Source of the DNA: an uncultured Bacteroidia bacterium
GTDB lineage: Bacteria; Bacteroidota; Bacteroidia; Bacteroidales; Prolixibacteraceae
Length of the DNA stretch: 64,000 bases
Assembly: GCA_903902325.1 (NCBI GenBank)
Contig: CAIUUO010000050.1
Coordinates: 1-64,000, forward strand
Direction: 5' to 3'
Made by a program: the position numbers and the translations under genes. The notes below the pieces were generated by a model. That model made no database searches. It worked only from the letters and a program-made list of their open reading frames with translations, and was not told the DNA's origin. Shown piece by piece: positions 3,857-36,326 of the stretch; position 1 is the stretch's first letter, and every line of letters starts with the position of its first letter.

Positions 3857-3940
3857 GGCATCTGAATAGTTATTTCCTATATACTAAAAAGAGGCGATTT
3901 TGTTTCCATTTTGTGCCAGGTTTAACCACGAAGGACACAA

Positions 3941-4017
3941 ATGAGAAATGAAAAATGAAAAATGAAAAATGAAAAATGAGAAATGAAAAGTGAAAAGTGA
4001 AAAATGAAAAATGAAAA
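3941..4017. repeat. 11 tandem 7-bp units, consensus RTGARAA
   Basis: Direct reading: atgagaa|atgaaaa x4|atgagaa|atgaaaa|gtgaaaa x2|atgaaaa x2. Confidence 0.95.
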
Positions 4018-7927: not shown

Positions 7928-8064
7928 TTACCATAAAGGTCACAAAGGAAAACACAAAGGACACAAAGGGCTCAACATTCATTATTCTTGCTAAATGCAT
8001 CATTGTCAAGAGTTAATTTTACTTTGTGTCCTTCGTGCATCCTTCGGGTCCTTTGTGGTTAAAT
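7928..8064. repeat. inverted pair of ACAAAGG-type 8-9 bp repeats
   Basis: ccataaaggtcacaaaggaaaacacaaaggacacaaaggg versus ctttgtgtccttcgtgcatccttcgggtcctttgtggttaa. Confidence 0.8.
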
Positions 8065-9446: not shown

Positions 9447-9541
9447 CCTTTGTGTCCTTCGTGCAACCCTTTGTGACCTTTGTGGTTAAGATTTTAAATT
9501 TCACCACAAAGTTCACGAAGGCAAACACGAAGGGCACGAAG
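9447..9541. repeat. long imperfect hairpin of 8-9 bp repeats (about 44-nt arms, short loop)
   Basis: cctttgtgtccttcgtgcaaccctttgtgacctttgtggttaag / tttcaccacaaagttcacgaaggcaaacacgaagggcacgaagc. Confidence 0.85.
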
Positions 9542-12505: not shown

Positions 12506-12552
12506 TTGAAATACGAGGCCACAAAGGCACGAAGACACTAAGGTACACAAAG
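12506..12552. repeat. 8-bp-period repeat, left arm bracketing GxxExxY gene
   Basis: ttgaaatacgaggcc acaaaggc|acgaagac|actaaggt|acacaaag. Confidence 0.85.
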
Positions 12553-12563
12553 TTAATAAGGGA

Positions 12564-12968
12564 TCAGAGAACAAATCGTTTGATGCCATCCTTGATTAAG
12601 GGAACATCAAAATTTATGAGATATCCAAGTCTTTTGCCTGTTAGCTTTAAATGGCTTAGTATTTGTGCATCCCAAACGGGATTTACTGTTTCGAGAGCTT
12701 TCAATTCGCATATTGCAAGATCATTGACCATGACATCCAGCCTTAAACCCTCATTGAAAATAAATTGCTCAAAAACTATAGGAACATCCAACTGTCTCTG
12801 CACCATATAACCTTCTTTTGACAGTACATGGCAAAAGCAAACTTCATATACCTTTTCCAACAGTCCTGGGCCTAATTCCTTATGCACCCTAAACGCGGCA
12901 TTTACTATAGCCTTGCCAATCGCCTCTTCTTCTTGAGAAAGGGGCAAATATCCTTTGAAATGATCCAT
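12564..12968 (-). CDS. GxxExxY protein, PD-(D/E)XK nuclease-like
   Basis: GPGLLEKVYE (GxxExxY motif) and LRLDVMVNDLAICELKA (D...ExK). Confidence 0.85.
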   Translation of the reverse strand: MDHFKGYLPLSQEEEAIGKAIVNAAFRVHKELGPGLLEKVYEVCFCHVLSKEGYMVQRQLDVPIVFEQFIFNEGLRLDVMVNDLAICELKALETVNPVWDAQILSHLKLTGKRLGYLINFDVPLIKDGIKRFVL

Positions 12969-12998
12969 TTTTATGTCATTAATGGTTTACTTCAAATC

Positions 12999-13062
12999 AC
13001 TCTTTGTGAAACTTTGTGTCTTTGTGCCTTTCCCGACAAGTCGGGACAAGTCGTGGCCTCGT
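12999..13062. repeat. 8-bp-period repeat, right arm (inverted) bracketing GxxExxY gene, containing CCCGACAAGTCGGG palindrome
   Basis: actctttgtgaaactttgtgtctttgtgcctttcccgacaagtcgggacaagtcgtggcctcgt is an inverted relative of 12513-12552. Confidence 0.85.
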
Positions 13063-13083
13063 TTTTCCTTGTTTTCTAAATAT

Positions 13084-13160
13084 AAATGTCGCGCAAAGAC
13101 GCAAAGTACGCAAAGCCATATTTCTTCTCTGCGTTCTTTGCGTGCTCTGCGCGACATTTA
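13084..13160. repeat. hairpin of GCAAAGAC-type repeats
   Basis: aaatgtcgcgcaaagacgcaaagtacgcaaag ... ctctgcgttctttgcgtgctctgcgcgacattt near-perfect inverted arms. Confidence 0.85.
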
Positions 13161-13165
13161 AACAA

Positions 13166-15112
13166 TCATTTGGGCGCCAGTGTAAAATTGAACTTGTCAT
13201 TCTTCTTCGGTGACTTCGCTTTCAGGTTGATGCGGTGGATTGTCTCTCCCCAGTTGCGTTTGACCCCTTTGTCTTCCATCTTGTCAAGCGGTATTTTTTC
13301 GACGGAGACTTCAAACTGGGCGGGATTGTACTTTAGCAAGAAATCTAAAGCCTTGCCGCCTTGTGGAGCATAATGGATGGCGAGTTCGCCCGGTTTGACC
13401 ACCTCTGCAGGATAGCAGGTCATCAAATGCTGCACGATAGAAGAGGCTTCTGTAAGTTTGATGGCATCCTCGAACGCCACGCTTTTTCCCCTGTTGAGAC
13501 GCACGCTGCGCATCCAGCTGGTAATTCCGGCATCGGCAGGGTATGATTTTGCGATATCCAGGGATAGGGCAGAGAAGTCTTTTCCTGTTTTGTAGGATAC
13601 ATTTCCGGCTTTGAACTGTGGACCAGGCAACTGGTCCTTCCCGTTGACTGTTGGCAAGTTGTGGTAGTCAGAACAGTTGTACCAGATCTCGTAGCGTTTG
13701 TCGCTGAAAGTCTTGCGGGTATAGGTTCCGCTTCCGACATCTATCAGCAGCGGCATCCCGTTGTAATAGACCATGAAATTGCCAATATCGTTGTGGTTGT
13801 GGCTCTCATCGTTGTTACCACCCTTGGCAGCCAGGAAGAAACCATCCGTGGAAGACTGCTTGTCGCGGGCAATCATCACCTGGAGATCAGGCAGCCAGGT
13901 GTCCTTGGGAAAAGGCAGTCCCTTTTCGGCAGACTGGTATTCATTCTGGATAAAGAGGGCGAAGAAATTCCTGAAATAGTGGGCGCGGCCGGATGAACCT
14001 TCTGCCGGTGAACGATAGTACGCACCAAATTTCATCATGTCGGGATCCTCGATGTCTTTCCCGAAGCGGTAAATCATGTCGGCAGCCATCCCCGGTTTCG
14101 GACTTGCATCGGCAAAATTGACGAAGTAAAGCGGACTGATCTGGGCACGGTAGATGAAGCGTCCCATGTTCCTGAATTTTTCATCCTTGTAGACATAGGT
14201 GAACTTGTTCGCCGTGGCGAGGTTCAGCATGGCGATGTTGTCGTAGAGTGAAGCCGCAGCGGCTCCCCAGTAACCCGGACCTTCGTCGCAACCGCCATCC
14301 TGCGGATAGGGGTTGAGGAACTGGTCGAGGACGTTCAGGATTTTGGCAACCGTTTCGGTCCGTTTGTTGTTGTCTTTTTCGAGCAGCAGGACTGCATTCA
14401 GCCAGTTGGAGCAGATCCATGGATTCCAGTTGTTTGGGCGCCTGCCATTTTCGTTGGCAGCCATGAAGCCATGGGGCTTGGTCATTAGCGGAGTGAAAAT
14501 CCGGCTGTTGGTTTCATCGTAGATGCGTTTGCGGATTTGCGGGGAAACGGCGTCCAGCTTGTCACCCAGGTAATAATCCACCCATGCCAGGAAACAGGAT
14601 GTTTCGGCAGAGAAAAGTTCTACGAAGGGCTGTTTGACGTTGATCAAACCCGAGAGTTCCTTCGTCTTGGGCAGGTGGGCGGGAACGCCCCAGAAAGATT
14701 CCTCGCAGATGGACCAGACTCCGTCGATGATCTGATCGGTAAAGCGGCCCTTGTTTTCGTAGATTTCTGCCAGCAACAGCGTGCCCAGCACCTCGCGTTT
14801 CTTGAAACTGATGGTCTGGTACTCATCCCTGTCGCCGGTTCGTTCGATCAGGAGTGATTTGGTAGCCGGAATGCCGGGCCATTCGTATTTCAGGTAGGTC
14901 TCGGCAGTTTTCACATAGGCCTTCATCATCGCCTGATCGGCTTTGGCCCATCCGGCGCGGTCGTCGATCTTCGGGAATGGCAGCCATTTCTCCTGAGGGA
15001 TCAGGATTTTAGACAGTTCGTCTTTGGTGTATTTGCCGCTGAGGAGATTTGGCTGGGCAGTTGCAGCCAGGCAAAACCAGAGGACTGTGAGGGTAAGAAG
15101 AATTTTTTTCAT
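13166..15112 (-). CDS. heparinase II/III family protein (polysaccharide lyase-like)
   Basis: 648 aa, signal peptide; alpha/alpha toroid plus GGNNDESHNHNDIGNFMVYYNGMPLLIDVGSGTY heparinase II/III motif. Confidence 0.8.
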   Translation of the reverse strand: MKKILLTLTVLWFCLAATAQPNLLSGKYTKDELSKILIPQEKWLPFPKIDDRAGWAKADQAMMKAYVKTAETYLKYEWPGIPATKSLLIERTGDRDEYQTISFKKREVLGTLLLAEIYENKGRFTDQIIDGVWSICEESFWGVPAHLPKTKELSGLINVKQPFVELFSAETSCFLAWVDYYLGDKLDAVSPQIRKRIYDETNSRIFTPLMTKPHGFMAANENGRRPNNWNPWICSNWLNAVLLLEKDNNKRTETVAKILNVLDQFLNPYPQDGGCDEGPGYWGAAAASLYDNIAMLNLATANKFTYVYKDEKFRNMGRFIYRAQISPLYFVNFADASPKPGMAADMIYRFGKDIEDPDMMKFGAYYRSPAEGSSGRAHYFRNFFALFIQNEYQSAEKGLPFPKDTWLPDLQVMIARDKQSSTDGFFLAAKGGNNDESHNHNDIGNFMVYYNGMPLLIDVGSGTYTRKTFSDKRYEIWYNCSDYHNLPTVNGKDQLPGPQFKAGNVSYKTGKDFSALSLDIAKSYPADAGITSWMRSVRLNRGKSVAFEDAIKLTEASSIVQHLMTCYPAEVVKPGELAIHYAPQGGKALDFLLKYNPAQFEVSVEKIPLDKMEDKGVKRNWGETIHRINLKAKSPKKNDKFNFTLAPK

Positions 15113-15145
15113 TTTTTTTCAGGTATTTATTGTTGGTTGAAAATT

Positions 15146-15189
15146 TGAAACGAGGCCACAAAGGCACGAAGACACTAAGATACACAAAG
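15146..15189. repeat. near-identical copy of the 12506-12552 8-bp-period repeat
   Basis: ttgaaacgaggccacaaaggcacgaagacactaagatacacaaag. Confidence 0.85.
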
Positions 15190-15197
15190 AATTGATG

Positions 15198-16580
15198 CTA
15201 CTTTATCAGTATGGGTTTTGCGAAATCCTCTTGCATATCGTAGGGCAGAATCCAGGTTTTATCTCCTTTTCTGTTGGTAAAATACAGATGGGATTCAGAA
15301 AGCTTGTCCGGATTGCCGTCGGCCCAGAATGCATAAAATTCATCGTTAGCTTTGAGCGGACGGCGGGCATAGGAGTGGTTGAGCAGGCTGTTGTGCGTGA
15401 TGTTCCTGATTTTCTTCCAGGTGGAACCTTCGTCGGAGCTTTCCCATAACGCCATTTCACCTCCGGCACCGTACTTTTGCGGGCCCGGTTCTGTAGGTCC
15501 GATAATCCTCCACAAATTGCCCTCGACGTAAAGTGATCCCATGTCATAATTGTGGGATGAGGTACAAACCTTGTGGAAATTCCATTTCCCGTTTTTACGG
15601 TGGATGATGGTCCATTCCCGCGGATCACCTTTGGGACCTGGTTTGAAATCGTTGCTGATGACCGCCAGAATGATGGGATTTCCATCCTTGTCGAAGTTCA
15701 GGTCGTTGAGATAGACCAGCTTCCCCTGGGCTTCATAATCACAGACCAATGCCGGGGTTTTTGTTGTAGTGAGGGGCGTTTGCAGCAATTGCCCGTCTAT
15801 CGATTTCCAGGATTTGCCATAGTCGTCCGTCTGAACCAGGTAGACGTTGGTGCGTTTGTCCACATTCCCGCCGGGATGGTAATTGAAAGTAGAATAGATT
15901 TTATCCTTGCTGATATTCGATACCTGGTAGTGGCCTCCCATGCCGGCGAGTTTCTGGTCGGGCGCCCAGGTACGTCCATCGGTGCTTGTCGTCCAATAAA
16001 GTTCGCGTCCATTGGTATATTTTGTAAAGAGGTAGAAAAATCCTTTGCCTTCTATCCACCAGGGTTGGGGATAGGTCATTTCGCATTCCTTTATTTGTTC
16101 GAAAGCCTCTATGGAATATGGTTTGTTGCCCCTGAAGAGGATGCCAGGACGGATCTTCGCCCTGCCGCTTACAAAAACCCAGATGAAGCCCTTGTCGTCG
16201 ATCGAAATGGAAGCATTGTCGTGCGGATCGTTCACCTCCATCTTGTCATAAACGATCACAGGTTTAGGCATCATCTTCGTTTCGTGGTCGAAAAAGGAGA
16301 TCATGATCAGGAGATGCCGCTCATCCTTGGCAGTCGTTCCGCCGTAGCAAAAAAAGGTCTTATCCGCCTCGGGAGAATAGATCGCAATGGGAATATGGTC
16401 GGCGGTATAGGTGCCTAAACCACCGGAATACTTGTCTCCAAATTCAGAAAACTGGCCAAGGGTAAACCAGATTCCCTTGTAGCCATTTGCCTTCGGATTC
16501 TGGGCATTCAGATTTTCTGTCAGCACAAAAAAAACAGATACAATCAGGATAAAATACTTTCTTTGAATTGATTGAAACAT
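15198..16580 (-). CDS. BNR repeat-type secreted protein, possible beta-propeller polysaccharide lyase (PL24/25/40/42-like)
   Basis: Start trimmed to MFQSIQRKYFILIVSVFF; ISIDDKGFIWVFVSGR, YGKSW, DEGSTW Asp-box-like repeats. Confidence 0.65.
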   Translation of the reverse strand: MFQSIQRKYFILIVSVFFVLTENLNAQNPKANGYKGIWFTLGQFSEFGDKYSGGLGTYTADHIPIAIYSPEADKTFFCYGGTTAKDERHLLIMISFFDHETKMMPKPVIVYDKMEVNDPHDNASISIDDKGFIWVFVSGRAKIRPGILFRGNKPYSIEAFEQIKECEMTYPQPWWIEGKGFFYLFTKYTNGRELYWTTSTDGRTWAPDQKLAGMGGHYQVSNISKDKIYSTFNYHPGGNVDKRTNVYLVQTDDYGKSWKSIDGQLLQTPLTTTKTPALVCDYEAQGKLVYLNDLNFDKDGNPIILAVISNDFKPGPKGDPREWTIIHRKNGKWNFHKVCTSSHNYDMGSLYVEGNLWRIIGPTEPGPQKYGAGGEMALWESSDEGSTWKKIRNITHNSLLNHSYARRPLKANDEFYAFWADGNPDKLSESHLYFTNRKGDKTWILPYDMQEDFAKPILIK

Positions 16581-16591
16581 GTGCAGATTGT

Positions 16592-17347
16592 TTAAAGTTT
16601 TTGTTGGCCGTACAATTTCCTGTTCCACACAAATTTGATCGAAATTGCATCCTTGTTGCATTCCTTCGTGCATCTGCCGCATAAGGTGCATTCCGAATTG
16701 GTGACCAAACCTTTCTTTTCTGCTGTCAGGTAATTGGTGATGGGAATATCAACCAGGCAGACTTTTTCACATTTTTTGCAGCCATTGCATTTATTCGTGT
16801 CCAAAACAGGCAATAATCGCGACCAGGTTGAACCGATTGCACACATGGAACCCATAAAGCAAAGGTTCCTGCATACCCATCGTTTTTCCAGCAACAATCC
16901 GAACAGGATCGCTCCTATGGCATCATACAACCAAATGTGCTGGTAATGAGGATTTAGTTCCGTACCAAAGAAATTCGGGATAAACCGGATTTCCTGAATG
17001 GTACCGTTGTGCAGATGGATGAAAAAGAAGGTCAGGGAGGAGGCGAAAAAACCGATCGGCATGATAAGCCTCAGCCATATGAGCGGCTTTGTTCGTTTGA
17101 TTTTTATCAGTGAATTACCAAATGTCAGATCCTGAACGGTACCCATAAAGCAAAACCAGCCGCAACCGATCCGGCCAAATATGGGAGATATTAGCATGAA
17201 GAGTAGCCAAATCAGTACAACAAATGTGATCACACCCCAATAAATGGAATGCCAGATAAACGCAAAATTGAACACCCTGAAGAAAGCAGGAGTGAGTATC
17301 AAAAACAGAATTCTGCTAATTGTATTGTATACTGACAGTCTAGCCAT
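16592..17347 (-). CDS. 4Fe-4S polyferredoxin-like membrane protein (NapH/YccM-type)
   Basis: TM segments plus CNGCKKCEKVC and CTLCGRCTKEC. Confidence 0.8.
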   Translation of the reverse strand: MARLSVYNTISRILFLILTPAFFRVFNFAFIWHSIYWGVITFVVLIWLLFMLISPIFGRIGCGWFCFMGTVQDLTFGNSLIKIKRTKPLIWLRLIMPIGFFASSLTFFFIHLHNGTIQEIRFIPNFFGTELNPHYQHIWLYDAIGAILFGLLLEKRWVCRNLCFMGSMCAIGSTWSRLLPVLDTNKCNGCKKCEKVCLVDIPITNYLTAEKKGLVTNSECTLCGRCTKECNKDAISIKFVWNRKLYGQQKL

Positions 17348-17448
17348 ATTAGATTCCCGAATAAATACACAAATTAAAACTTCCTGTATTTTCTTTACGA
17401 TCTTAGCGTGCTTTGCGCGAGATTATTGGTGAAATTCACCGTGACAGA

Positions 17449-18693
17449 TCACTTTTGGTTTTTCCCCAATCTTTTATCCGCGAAATCCAGGTAGAAATTC
17501 CAGTCTTTCAGCAACAGATTGTGCTTGCCATCGCGCACGTGGTAGGCCACATTTCCGCTAATGACAGGCTGGTTGACCGGTGGCATCCCGTCAGGTAAGG
17601 CGGATTTTGTTCCGAACAGGTTGTATGCAGGTACGGCATAAAAAAGCGCAAGGTATTGTCCGCGCGGATCACCCCAGAGATCCTGTTCGGCGCTGGCAAT
17701 GTAAAGCGGTCTGGGTGCGATCAGGGCCATCAGCATGTGCATGTCGACAGGCATGGAATCCTCTTTCCCGTTGTATTTTCTAAAGTTGGTGCAGAACCAG
17801 TGTGGGAAATTCCTGTTGATCTGGTAAATGGTTTCGCCATATCTTCGGCGACTCAGGGAGGAGCCTCCGCAACCTGCCTCGTTGCACGCCACCATGGCGA
17901 ATCGCTGGTCTGTTGCGCCGGCCCACAGTGCCGTCTTGGCGCCTCTGGAATGGCCAATCACTGCGATTTGATCCGGGGCTATGCTCTTGTCTGTAACCAA
18001 ATAATCCAGACAGCGGCTGGCACCCCAGGCCCAGGCTGCAATCGTTCCCCATGATTCCGCATTGCGCTGAGTATCCAGCAAGCCGTGAATTCCATCTTTA
18101 AACCCATCGTCCTTGTCAGGATCAACATCTGCATTGTCGAATGCCGCAATGGCATAACCCCGGGCAATGACCTCCTCGGCAGGCCAGAATTCACTTTTGA
18201 CGGTCCGTGTAAAATCGATGTTCTTCGGCGCACGGTTGCAGATCAAAAGAAATGCCGGTACGGGTTTCGTCGCCTTGTTGGGTGTGAAAAGGCCTAGCCT
18301 GATGGTCAGTGATTTGGATTGGGCGGTAATGGTGATATCAAGCAGTTTGAGGGTAGCCGCGCCATTCATGGCATTGGGATCCGTTTTAACGATTTTGAAC
18401 GTTTTGGTGTAGGGTGTGGATGGAACCCTGCCGAAAACCTGGGAAGTGAACAGTTCCAGCAGTTCCGGCCGCCTGATTTTCGTCCATTCGTTTTTGCCTG
18501 TTACGATCTGCCCGTTCGAACAGGTCAGAAGAGCCGGCAAAACGTATGAAGGCACTTTGGCCTCATCGTAATTGATTGGGGTTTCAACCTGTTGATCGGT
18601 AGTGTCGCGGGGAGTCTGACCATTTAATCCGTTCCACGCACACAATGACAGGGAGAACGTAAAAAAAATCAGAATGGATAATTTCATATTCAA
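17449..18693 (-). CDS. CE15-like glucuronoyl esterase family alpha/beta hydrolase
   Basis: IAVIGHSRGAKTALWAGATD, ACNEAGCGGSSLSRRRYGE, APRPLYIASAEQDLWGDPRG. Confidence 0.75.
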   Translation of the reverse strand: MNMKLSILIFFTFSLSLCAWNGLNGQTPRDTTDQQVETPINYDEAKVPSYVLPALLTCSNGQIVTGKNEWTKIRRPELLELFTSQVFGRVPSTPYTKTFKIVKTDPNAMNGAATLKLLDITITAQSKSLTIRLGLFTPNKATKPVPAFLLICNRAPKNIDFTRTVKSEFWPAEEVIARGYAIAAFDNADVDPDKDDGFKDGIHGLLDTQRNAESWGTIAAWAWGASRCLDYLVTDKSIAPDQIAVIGHSRGAKTALWAGATDQRFAMVACNEAGCGGSSLSRRRYGETIYQINRNFPHWFCTNFRKYNGKEDSMPVDMHMLMALIAPRPLYIASAEQDLWGDPRGQYLALFYAVPAYNLFGTKSALPDGMPPVNQPVISGNVAYHVRDGKHNLLLKDWNFYLDFADKRLGKNQK

Positions 18694-21473: not shown

Positions 21474-21562
21474 ATTTGTGTCCTTTGAGTTATCCTTTGA
21501 GATCTTTGTGGTAAAAAATTTAACCACTAAGGACACAAAGGCAACTGCGAAGGAACACTAAG
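21474..21562. repeat. inverted pair of ACAAAGG-type repeats with short central loop
   Basis: ttgtgtcctttgagttatcctttgagatctttgtggtaa / ttaaccactaaggacacaaaggcaactgcgaaggaacactaagg. Confidence 0.8.
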
Positions 21563-22896: not shown

Positions 22897-23000
22897 TACA
22901 CCACAAAGGGCACTAAGGGTAACACGAAGGGCACAAAGTAAAAACCATCAGGCGTTTTTTGTGTCCTTTGAGTTGTACTTTGAGTCCTTCGTGGTGAAAG
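22897..23000. repeat. inverted pair of ACAAAGG-type repeats
   Basis: accacaaagggcactaagggtaacacgaagggcacaaag / tttgtgtcctttgagttgtactttgagtccttcgtggtg. Confidence 0.8.
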
Positions 23001-30443: not shown

Positions 30444-30534
30444 CGCGGTGGTTGCGTGTTACAATTCAAATATCACCGCAAAGGCCACGAATGTTAACAC
30501 GAAGGTCTCTAAGTATTTTAATGATTTAAAGATA

Positions 30535-36282: not shown

Positions 36283-36326
36283 TCACCACGAAGGACACGA
36301 AGGTTCCTGCAAAGGACACAAAGGTT
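36283..36326. repeat. 8-9 bp ACGAAGG/ACAAAGG repeat
   Basis: caccacgaaggacacgaaggttcctgcaaaggacacaaagg. Confidence 0.75.

Follow-up and report, generated by a model that had tools for sequence, protein, structure and literature searches.

The closest known pairs of a gene with dispersed repeats are the RAYT-REP (REPIN) systems, whose transposases are of the Y1 type and related to those of IS200/IS605 (PMC2817692, PMC8049555). Inverted repeats flank the gene, gene and repeat coevolve, repeat copy number is correlated with the gene, and the repeats show the BIME order (PMC2817692). The intervening sequences (IVSs) of 23S rRNA carry an S23/four-helix-bundle ORF with inverted ends, and mobility has been suspected for them (PMC4990558). 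Repeats of short tandem words are also on record, namely the TAACTGA heptamers of Beggiatoaceae, Cyanobacteria and Bacteroidetes (PMC4679880) and the tandem octa- and heptanucleotides found on opposite strands in Geobacter metallireducens (PMC2700814). Intergenic tandem-word repeats of this kind have been described over decades with no partner gene attached to them. GxxExxY genes, for their part, are present in very many genomes and have no assigned function; in the open-access literature searched, the name was met in one paper as a passing annotation. A link between GxxExxY and these repeats provides a testable function for the protein and a testable origin for the repeats.

The locus described here lies in a stretch of 64,000 nt of Bacteroidota DNA, hereafter called the window. 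Positions 12513-13062 are, in our opinion, best explained (with a probability of roughly 0.6) as a mobile or once mobile cassette, composed of a PD-(D/E)XK nuclease gene and inverted terminal word arrays that form a cognate pair with it; its non-autonomous copies would be the arrays that lack a gene, most of which form inverted pairs about 75-170 nt long. The evidence points to a previously undescribed mobile gene-and-repeat pair.

The cassette and its nuclease gene

The whole cassette measures about 550 nt; the median length of 75 GxxExxY elements is 531 nt. The arm on the 3' side of the gene (12513-12552, plus strand) reads ACGAG-GCCACAAAG-g-CACGAAG-a-CACTAAG-gta-CACAAAG, that is, four words with a longer spacer before the final one, and its word array CACAAAGGCACGAAGACACTAAGGTACACAAAG (CACAAAG-g-CACGAAG-a-CACTAAG-gta-CACAAAG) occupies 12520-12552. 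The arm on the 5' side (12999-13062) is inverted, and consists on the minus strand of CGAGGCCAC, a palindrome-containing stretch (GACTTGTCCCGACTTGTCGGGAAAG) and CACAAAG-a-CACAAAG-ttt-CACAAAG, the last being the array CACAAAGACACAAAGTTTCACAAAG at 13002-13026. These two arrays bear out the original prediction of a GxxExxY gene bracketed by inverted arrays of approximately 8-nt words, and CGAGGCCAC forms the outer end of both arms. In the 5'-side arm, a stretch with the palindrome CCCGACTTGTCGGG occupies the place of the first words. Such a replacement by a CCCGACAAGTCGGG-type palindrome (13020-13050 in the window) was also seen at three other loci (L270, L273 and L274), and it looks as if another repeat family had displaced part of the array in these palindrome-bearing arms. 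Taken singly, the 3'-side arm has little tendency to fold (-3.6 kcal/mol); it is built as a tandem CAC-NAAG array rather than as a GT(A/G)G-headed palindrome. The nearby region 13166-18693, with genes for heparinase-II/III-like, BNR-repeat and glucuronyl-esterase-like proteins, is probably devoted to polysaccharide degradation.

The gene (12564-12968, minus strand) encodes a GxxExxY/PDDEXK_3 protein of 134 aa. PF13366 was the sole Pfam profile matched by the protein, a Y1 (HUH) transposase domain being absent; judged by the curated cut-offs, it is a member both of PF13366 (E=5.9e-33, 114.1 bits, cut-off 22) and of TIGR04256 (E=1.6e-34, 118.7 bits, cut-off 35). The E...D...ExK pattern, related to PD-(D/E)XK nucleases, that had been attributed to GxxExxY proteins is seen in an alignment of 48 homologues from many phyla, in which H29, G33, G35, E38, Y41, D78, E88-x-K90 and Q102 are invariant. 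The window protein thus keeps both the GxxExxY motif (G35-E38-Y41) and the D..ExK catalytic residues (D78, E88, K90). An ExK followed by QxxxY is the style of the RecB/Cas4/lambda-exonuclease group of PD-(D/E)XK nucleases; the Tyr position of QxxxY is occupied by His in the window protein. A fold search with the AlphaFold model (pLDDT 92.8) returned weak matches to PD-(D/E)XK nucleases, the best being lambda exonuclease (E=5e-3, TM 0.48) together with SSO0001. Sequence search of the PDB with the protein found no relative, and the Rfam search gave nothing above threshold. It should be noted that identity with the S23 four-helix-bundle proteins is ruled out by the profile matches and by the fold model.

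Gene and words as a cognate pair

The genome to which the window belongs (G000) contains seven GxxExxY genes. When read by eye, all seven appeared bracketed by inverted word arrays, with a different word in each (ACGAAT, ACAAAGGACTCGAAGG, ACGAATTACACC, GATTAAAT, ACATAGG, ACAAAG/ACGAAG and TTGGATT). Each upstream flank was then aligned to the reverse complement of the downstream flanks, and the element's own partner was the best match in six of the seven cases; the seventh element (L001) has a word in common with another one (L003).

The same comparison was made in 41 genomes of the same genus, family and order (the order set), which provided 74 GxxExxY genes with both flanks. At a score of at least 32, matching inverted flanks were present in 51% of these, compared with 4% of 175 other same-locus genes (MWU p=1e-15), the latter rate being overestimated because some of the control genes were GxxExxY genes fetched twice. 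Mispaired flanks reached a score of 32 in 2.9% of cases, and the ParE toxin genes of the same genomes scored at least 30 in 3%. A second, cross-phylum set comprised 77 loci from more than 10 phyla (Bacteroidota, Desulfobacterota, Acidobacteria, Planctomycetes, Verrucomicrobia, Chloroflexi, Cyanobacteria, Proteobacteria and others); 70% of these loci reached the threshold of 30, versus 9% for mispaired flanks. The loci in these analyses are the best-scoring matches, many of them out of draft metagenome assemblies. The enrichment of flanking repeats on which the original prediction depended was therefore found against same-locus genes, against ParE and, across phyla, against mispaired flanks. 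The fraction of GxxExxY genes with no arm pair detectable at threshold (30-49%) counts against the cassette reading. The words of the arms recur with a period of 8 (9, 10) nt, and the consensus end of the arms is TT-R-CCRC-NAAG-N-CAC-NAAG-N-CAC-NAAG.

The word varies among elements, yet it agrees between both ends of one element, and the words of the elements in one genome are unrelated to each other. Between different genomes, protein identity predicts the match of upstream arm to downstream arm, with a Mantel rho of 0.25 in the order set and of 0.27 across phyla (0 of 1000 permutations in each case, although such permutations leave some phylogenetic dependence in place). The outer word GCCAC-NAAR was present, across phyla, in 16 of 20 relatives whose identity to the window gene is 58% or more, as opposed to 2 of 60 others (p=2e-11). 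The proposed comparison of repeat sequence with GxxExxY clade was thus positive in both sets, and gene and words behave like cognate partners. A GxxExxY nuclease recognizing its own word arrays, perhaps with the arms folded back or single-stranded, would account for the presence of clade-specific words at both ends.

Gene-less copies and traces of movement

The window has five arrays of at least three words, with none in any of 20 Markov shuffles, and 18 chains of at least two words versus 1.85 expected. All 18 chains are located in spacers, nine of which lie beyond the two spacers flanking the gene, where at least eight had been noted. The next spacer holds a solo arm (15145-15189, plus strand) with 94% identity over 50 nt to the arm at 12513. 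Two-word chains on the plus strand are found at 3927-3942, 21525-21540, 30477-30492 and 36287-36302, with two more of them at 22902-22938, and a chain of two CGC words is found on the minus strand at 17402-17417; in addition, two-word chains form a gene-less inverted pair at 7953-8037 and BIME-like, opposite-facing pairs at 9448-9541.

The hairpin at 13083-13160 deserves separate mention. Folded as single-stranded DNA, it has an energy of -29.3 kcal/mol (z=-9.4), and the strong hairpin announced for 13084-13160 was accordingly recovered; its assignment to the repeat family of the arms was not, in that it is made of CGCAAAG words, a second word family, as opposed to the CACNAAG of the cassette. 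Around 20 further copies are present in the same genome, while no CGC words were seen by eye around its seven GxxExxY elements; GxxExxY genes with CGC words are present in a genome of the same genus (L038, L073). That these hairpins are numerous in a genome with no GxxExxY gene of that word counts against the cassette reading.

Dispersed copies of the cassette's own words in G000, collected by pattern and DNA searches, take the form either of single arms or of inverted pairs about 100 nt long, in head-to-head as well as tail-to-tail order, each laid out as GCCAC-NAAG-n-CAC-NAAG-n-CAC-NAAG-gttt-CACAAAG. The predicted gene-less copies elsewhere thus exist, as paired or solo arms dispersed in spacers. 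Gene-less pairs of about 75-170 nt with the ends TTCACCACAGAGG are likewise present in a B. finegoldii-like Bacteroides (G506, 25 pattern matches) and in its 97% relative (G520, 14 matches), with no match to the reversed pattern used as control; one family of about 155-160 nt is found there at several unrelated sites, the flanks being likewise unrelated. On three contigs (C244, C91 and C149) of G034, a genome with 60 matches and a single GxxExxY gene, the word CGCAAAGACGCAAAG forms long arrays at regular spacing. At another locus (L055, G005:C317:3375-4379), two equal-scoring GxxExxY genes about 670 bp apart apparently represent a tandem copy of the cassette.

Of the 24 order-set genomes that have GxxExxY, 20 contained the three-word pattern, as did 2 of the 17 that lack it (Fisher p=6e-6), and the reversed pattern gave zero matches in the same 41 genomes. 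The repeat count remained correlated with GxxExxY when other mobile-type families and genome size were taken into account (partial rho 0.46, permutation p=0.0016), so that the expected dependence of repeat copy number on GxxExxY presence was upheld. It should be noted that the ParE count also tracks repeat number (0.67 raw, partial 0.34); the raw GxxExxY correlation is therefore partly an effect of mobile-rich genomes, and the test is not a clean one. These counts also bear on the idea that another enzyme, e.g. a resident RAYT/Y1 transposase, spreads the arrays and that GxxExxY is a passenger. Y1_Tnp (RAYT) genes do occur in 35 of the 41 genomes, and genomes with more of them tend to have more repeats (rho 0.50), but the partial correlation is 0.08 for Y1 given GxxExxY versus 0.59 for GxxExxY given Y1. 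Moreover, none of 20 Y1 loci had word arrays nearby (clear inverted flanks there were mostly palindromes of their own), and a passenger role would leave the agreement between word and GxxExxY clade unexplained. RAYT as the driver is rejected on the flank and partial-correlation tests, and we consider the passenger explanation as a whole improbable.

As regards movement, the empty site sought in a relative was found at the window locus itself: in a genus-mate without any GxxExxY gene (G006), the two flanking genes are adjacent and about 214 nt apart, compared with about 730 in the window. The nearest relative of the window gene found in the genus (in G001, 72% nucleotide identity) has GCCAC-type words and lies in a non-syntenic place.

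The richest record comes from the spacer between radA and a FAD gene in Bacteroides, where about 18 species have a GxxExxY cassette, extending from the radA stop codon (0-5 nt off in nearly all cases) to about 20 nt before the next start; Bacteroides without it have an unrelated spacer of 32-80 nt. The site is occupied in G422 and G471 and empty in G455, even though the 300 nt of radA adjoining the junction are identical. At this site, the phylogeny of the gene does not agree with that of the flanks. In the sister pairs G485/G453 and G493/G427 the proteins are just 52-54% identical and belong to two clades, and the words go by clade, CAGAG in one and CAGATT in the other; the outermost junctions TTCACCACAGA and TCTGTGGTGAA are conserved in spite of the differing cassette clades, and one arm of G427 is chimeric, with both words. 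Clade-matched words, kept outer junctions and the chimeric arm together indicate that gene and words were swapped jointly, as one block, at the terminal word. In one Bacteroides case the flanks become less similar close to the junction, and the swaps between Bacteroides species could be ordinary homologous recombination. An in-place inversion of the interior of a gene-less pair was also found between G506 and G520 (L405, 1-1848, versus L415), with flanks 97-98% identical.

Target-site duplications showed no excess at gene-less pairs (0.67 versus 1.29) and a marginal one only at gene cassettes; identity with a DDE insertion sequence or MITE was rejected for want of a clear duplication. Insertion into the loops of existing hairpins, which would extend them, was hinted at by a single site (L404, GATAAATG|GTAAG..CTTACC|ATTTGAG versus GATAAATGATTATTTGAG) and is not general (p=0.054 and 0.97). 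Two candidate empty sites (L399 and L401) were discarded as not clean, one flank having a run of N and the other a different hairpin.

The architecture, the pairing of gene and words, the dispersed copies, the empty sites, the swapped cassettes, the inversion and the purifying selection are observations; behind them, we infer cutting by the nuclease and copying by repair. The nuclease would cut at the recognized arms, and host repair or recombination would copy arms or whole cassettes into new spacers; repair at a terminal word may replace one cassette by another, and repair between arms may flip the interior. Cutting at the arms with host repair would account for copies without clear target duplications, for replacement at the terminal word and for inversion.

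Two further explanations deserve mention. The arms might act as RNA, as in the 23S rRNA intervening sequences, the fold-back stem being cut by RNase III and the repeats persisting as mRNA processing or stabilizing elements, with an RNA-related role of the protein. The S23/four-helix-bundle ORFs, which are of similar size, do have the same architecture and are located in IVSs of rRNA whose ends are inverted (PMC4990558), and cassettes often lie within operons in sense orientation (radA-FAD, fabD-fabG). However, the ratio of orientations between co-oriented neighbours in the order set (50:8) does not differ clearly from that of other genes (71:18), gene-less copies use arms in both orientations freely, and the nearest solved folds, weak as their scores are, mostly belong to DNA exonucleases and a Cas4-type protein, tRNA splicing endonucleases being also among them. 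A role at the RNA level appears unlikely to us.

Alternatively, the system might serve the host, as a chromosomal nuclease whose arrays are selected operators or recombination sites, spread by gene conversion and homologous recombination and not by selfish transposition. This would fit the strong purifying selection on the gene (dN/dS ~0.05 in Bacteroides, from which it also follows that the gene is not a decaying passenger), its rarity on plasmids (7 among 72,556 plasmid records, with chromosome-like ones making up several of the 7), the lack of any GxxExxY in the phage collection searched, and the recurrence of one intergenic site in about 18 Bacteroides species. On the other hand, presence is patchy, with 0-17 matches per genome, gene-less copies sit at unrelated sites with unrelated flanks, and the elements of one genome have unrelated words; overall, a host-serving function strikes us as rather improbable.

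Apart from these considerations, in Sphingomonas parapaucimobilis a cassette separates fabD from fabG in the fatty-acid operon (L282, NZ_CP155749.1, 1955-2420), where the C-terminus of the ORF extends into the repeat; NZ_CP155749.1 is an 880-kb 'plasmid' with ribosomal protein genes.

Parallel families and known systems

Parallel architectures are seen in other, unrelated compact genes. Of 30 loci with four-helix-bundle genes (TIGR02436, S23-type) outside rRNA (L077-L106, e.g. L098, L101 and L104), 70% show 7-8-nt words arrayed in inverted orientation around the gene, versus 4% off the diagonal, with words in another style than those of GxxExxY (GGACTTGG, ACAATTAAC, TCAGTGG, AAGGCAT and others). 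The word-clade test in this set was not significant (rho 0.07, 105 of 1000 permutations); 32% of the pairs above 60% identity have common words. Stand-alone DUF559 (PF04480) genes (L107-L131) have inverted hairpins of the CCCCTAAATCCCC and CCCCTAAATCCCCTGAAGGGGACTTT types in 76% of 17. The S23 IVSs (PMC4990558) and the orphan heptamer repeats (PMC4679880, PMC2700814) may be the same phenomenon as the word-array elements. We tentatively propose, at somewhat less than even odds, a new class of prokaryotic mobile elements, in which compact ORFs of unrelated families (GxxExxY, S23-like four-helix-bundle and possibly DUF559) each lie in inverted, element-specific word arrays, over many phyla, with no target duplication and with the words of both ends kept alike. 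If it exists, such a class would account for many unexplained short tandem-word spacer repeats in bacteria. How both ends and all the words of an element stay alike is a question that can be tested in culturable Bacteroides.

Compared with RAYT-REP, the similarities are considerable. The GxxExxY gene lies between two cognate inverted repeats, the repeats have coevolved with the protein in sequence and are more numerous where the gene is present (although ParE also correlates with the GxxExxY repeats), inverted pairs are BIME-like, and the pair is not borne on mobile plasmids. The differences concern the enzyme, which is a PD-(D/E)XK nuclease here and an HUH Y1 transposase there; the arm, a tandem array of approximately 8-nt words as opposed to a GTAG-headed palindrome; the occurrence of several distinct pairs per genome and of same-site cassette exchange in GxxExxY; and inheritance, the RAYT gene being single-copy and vertical, whereas GxxExxY varies from 0 to 17 per genome with discordant gene and flank trees. 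Because it has no Y1 domain and no GTAG-headed palindrome, and is neither single-copy nor vertical, the GxxExxY pair is not filed as RAYT-REP. The RAYT/REP-like architecture of the original prediction therefore holds for flanks, coevolution and copy number and fails for enzyme class and repeat structure; a gene-repeat pairing of the RAYT-REP kind probably arose with another nuclease class.

Like the 23S IVSs, the cassette has a short reading frame (about 120-135 aa) enclosed by terminal repeats in inverted orientation, in about 0.4-0.5 kb, but the protein fold is unrelated, and the sites are spacers of protein genes instead of rRNA. Finally, the heptamer and octamer repeats resemble the arrays in their short tandem words located in spacers and in their patchy distribution over distant phyla, as well as, in G. 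metallireducens, in the opposite-strand pairs. No travelling partner gene was named for those repeats (PMC4679880, PMC2700814); for the arrays described here the partner is GxxExxY, and the word can be predicted from the clade of that gene.
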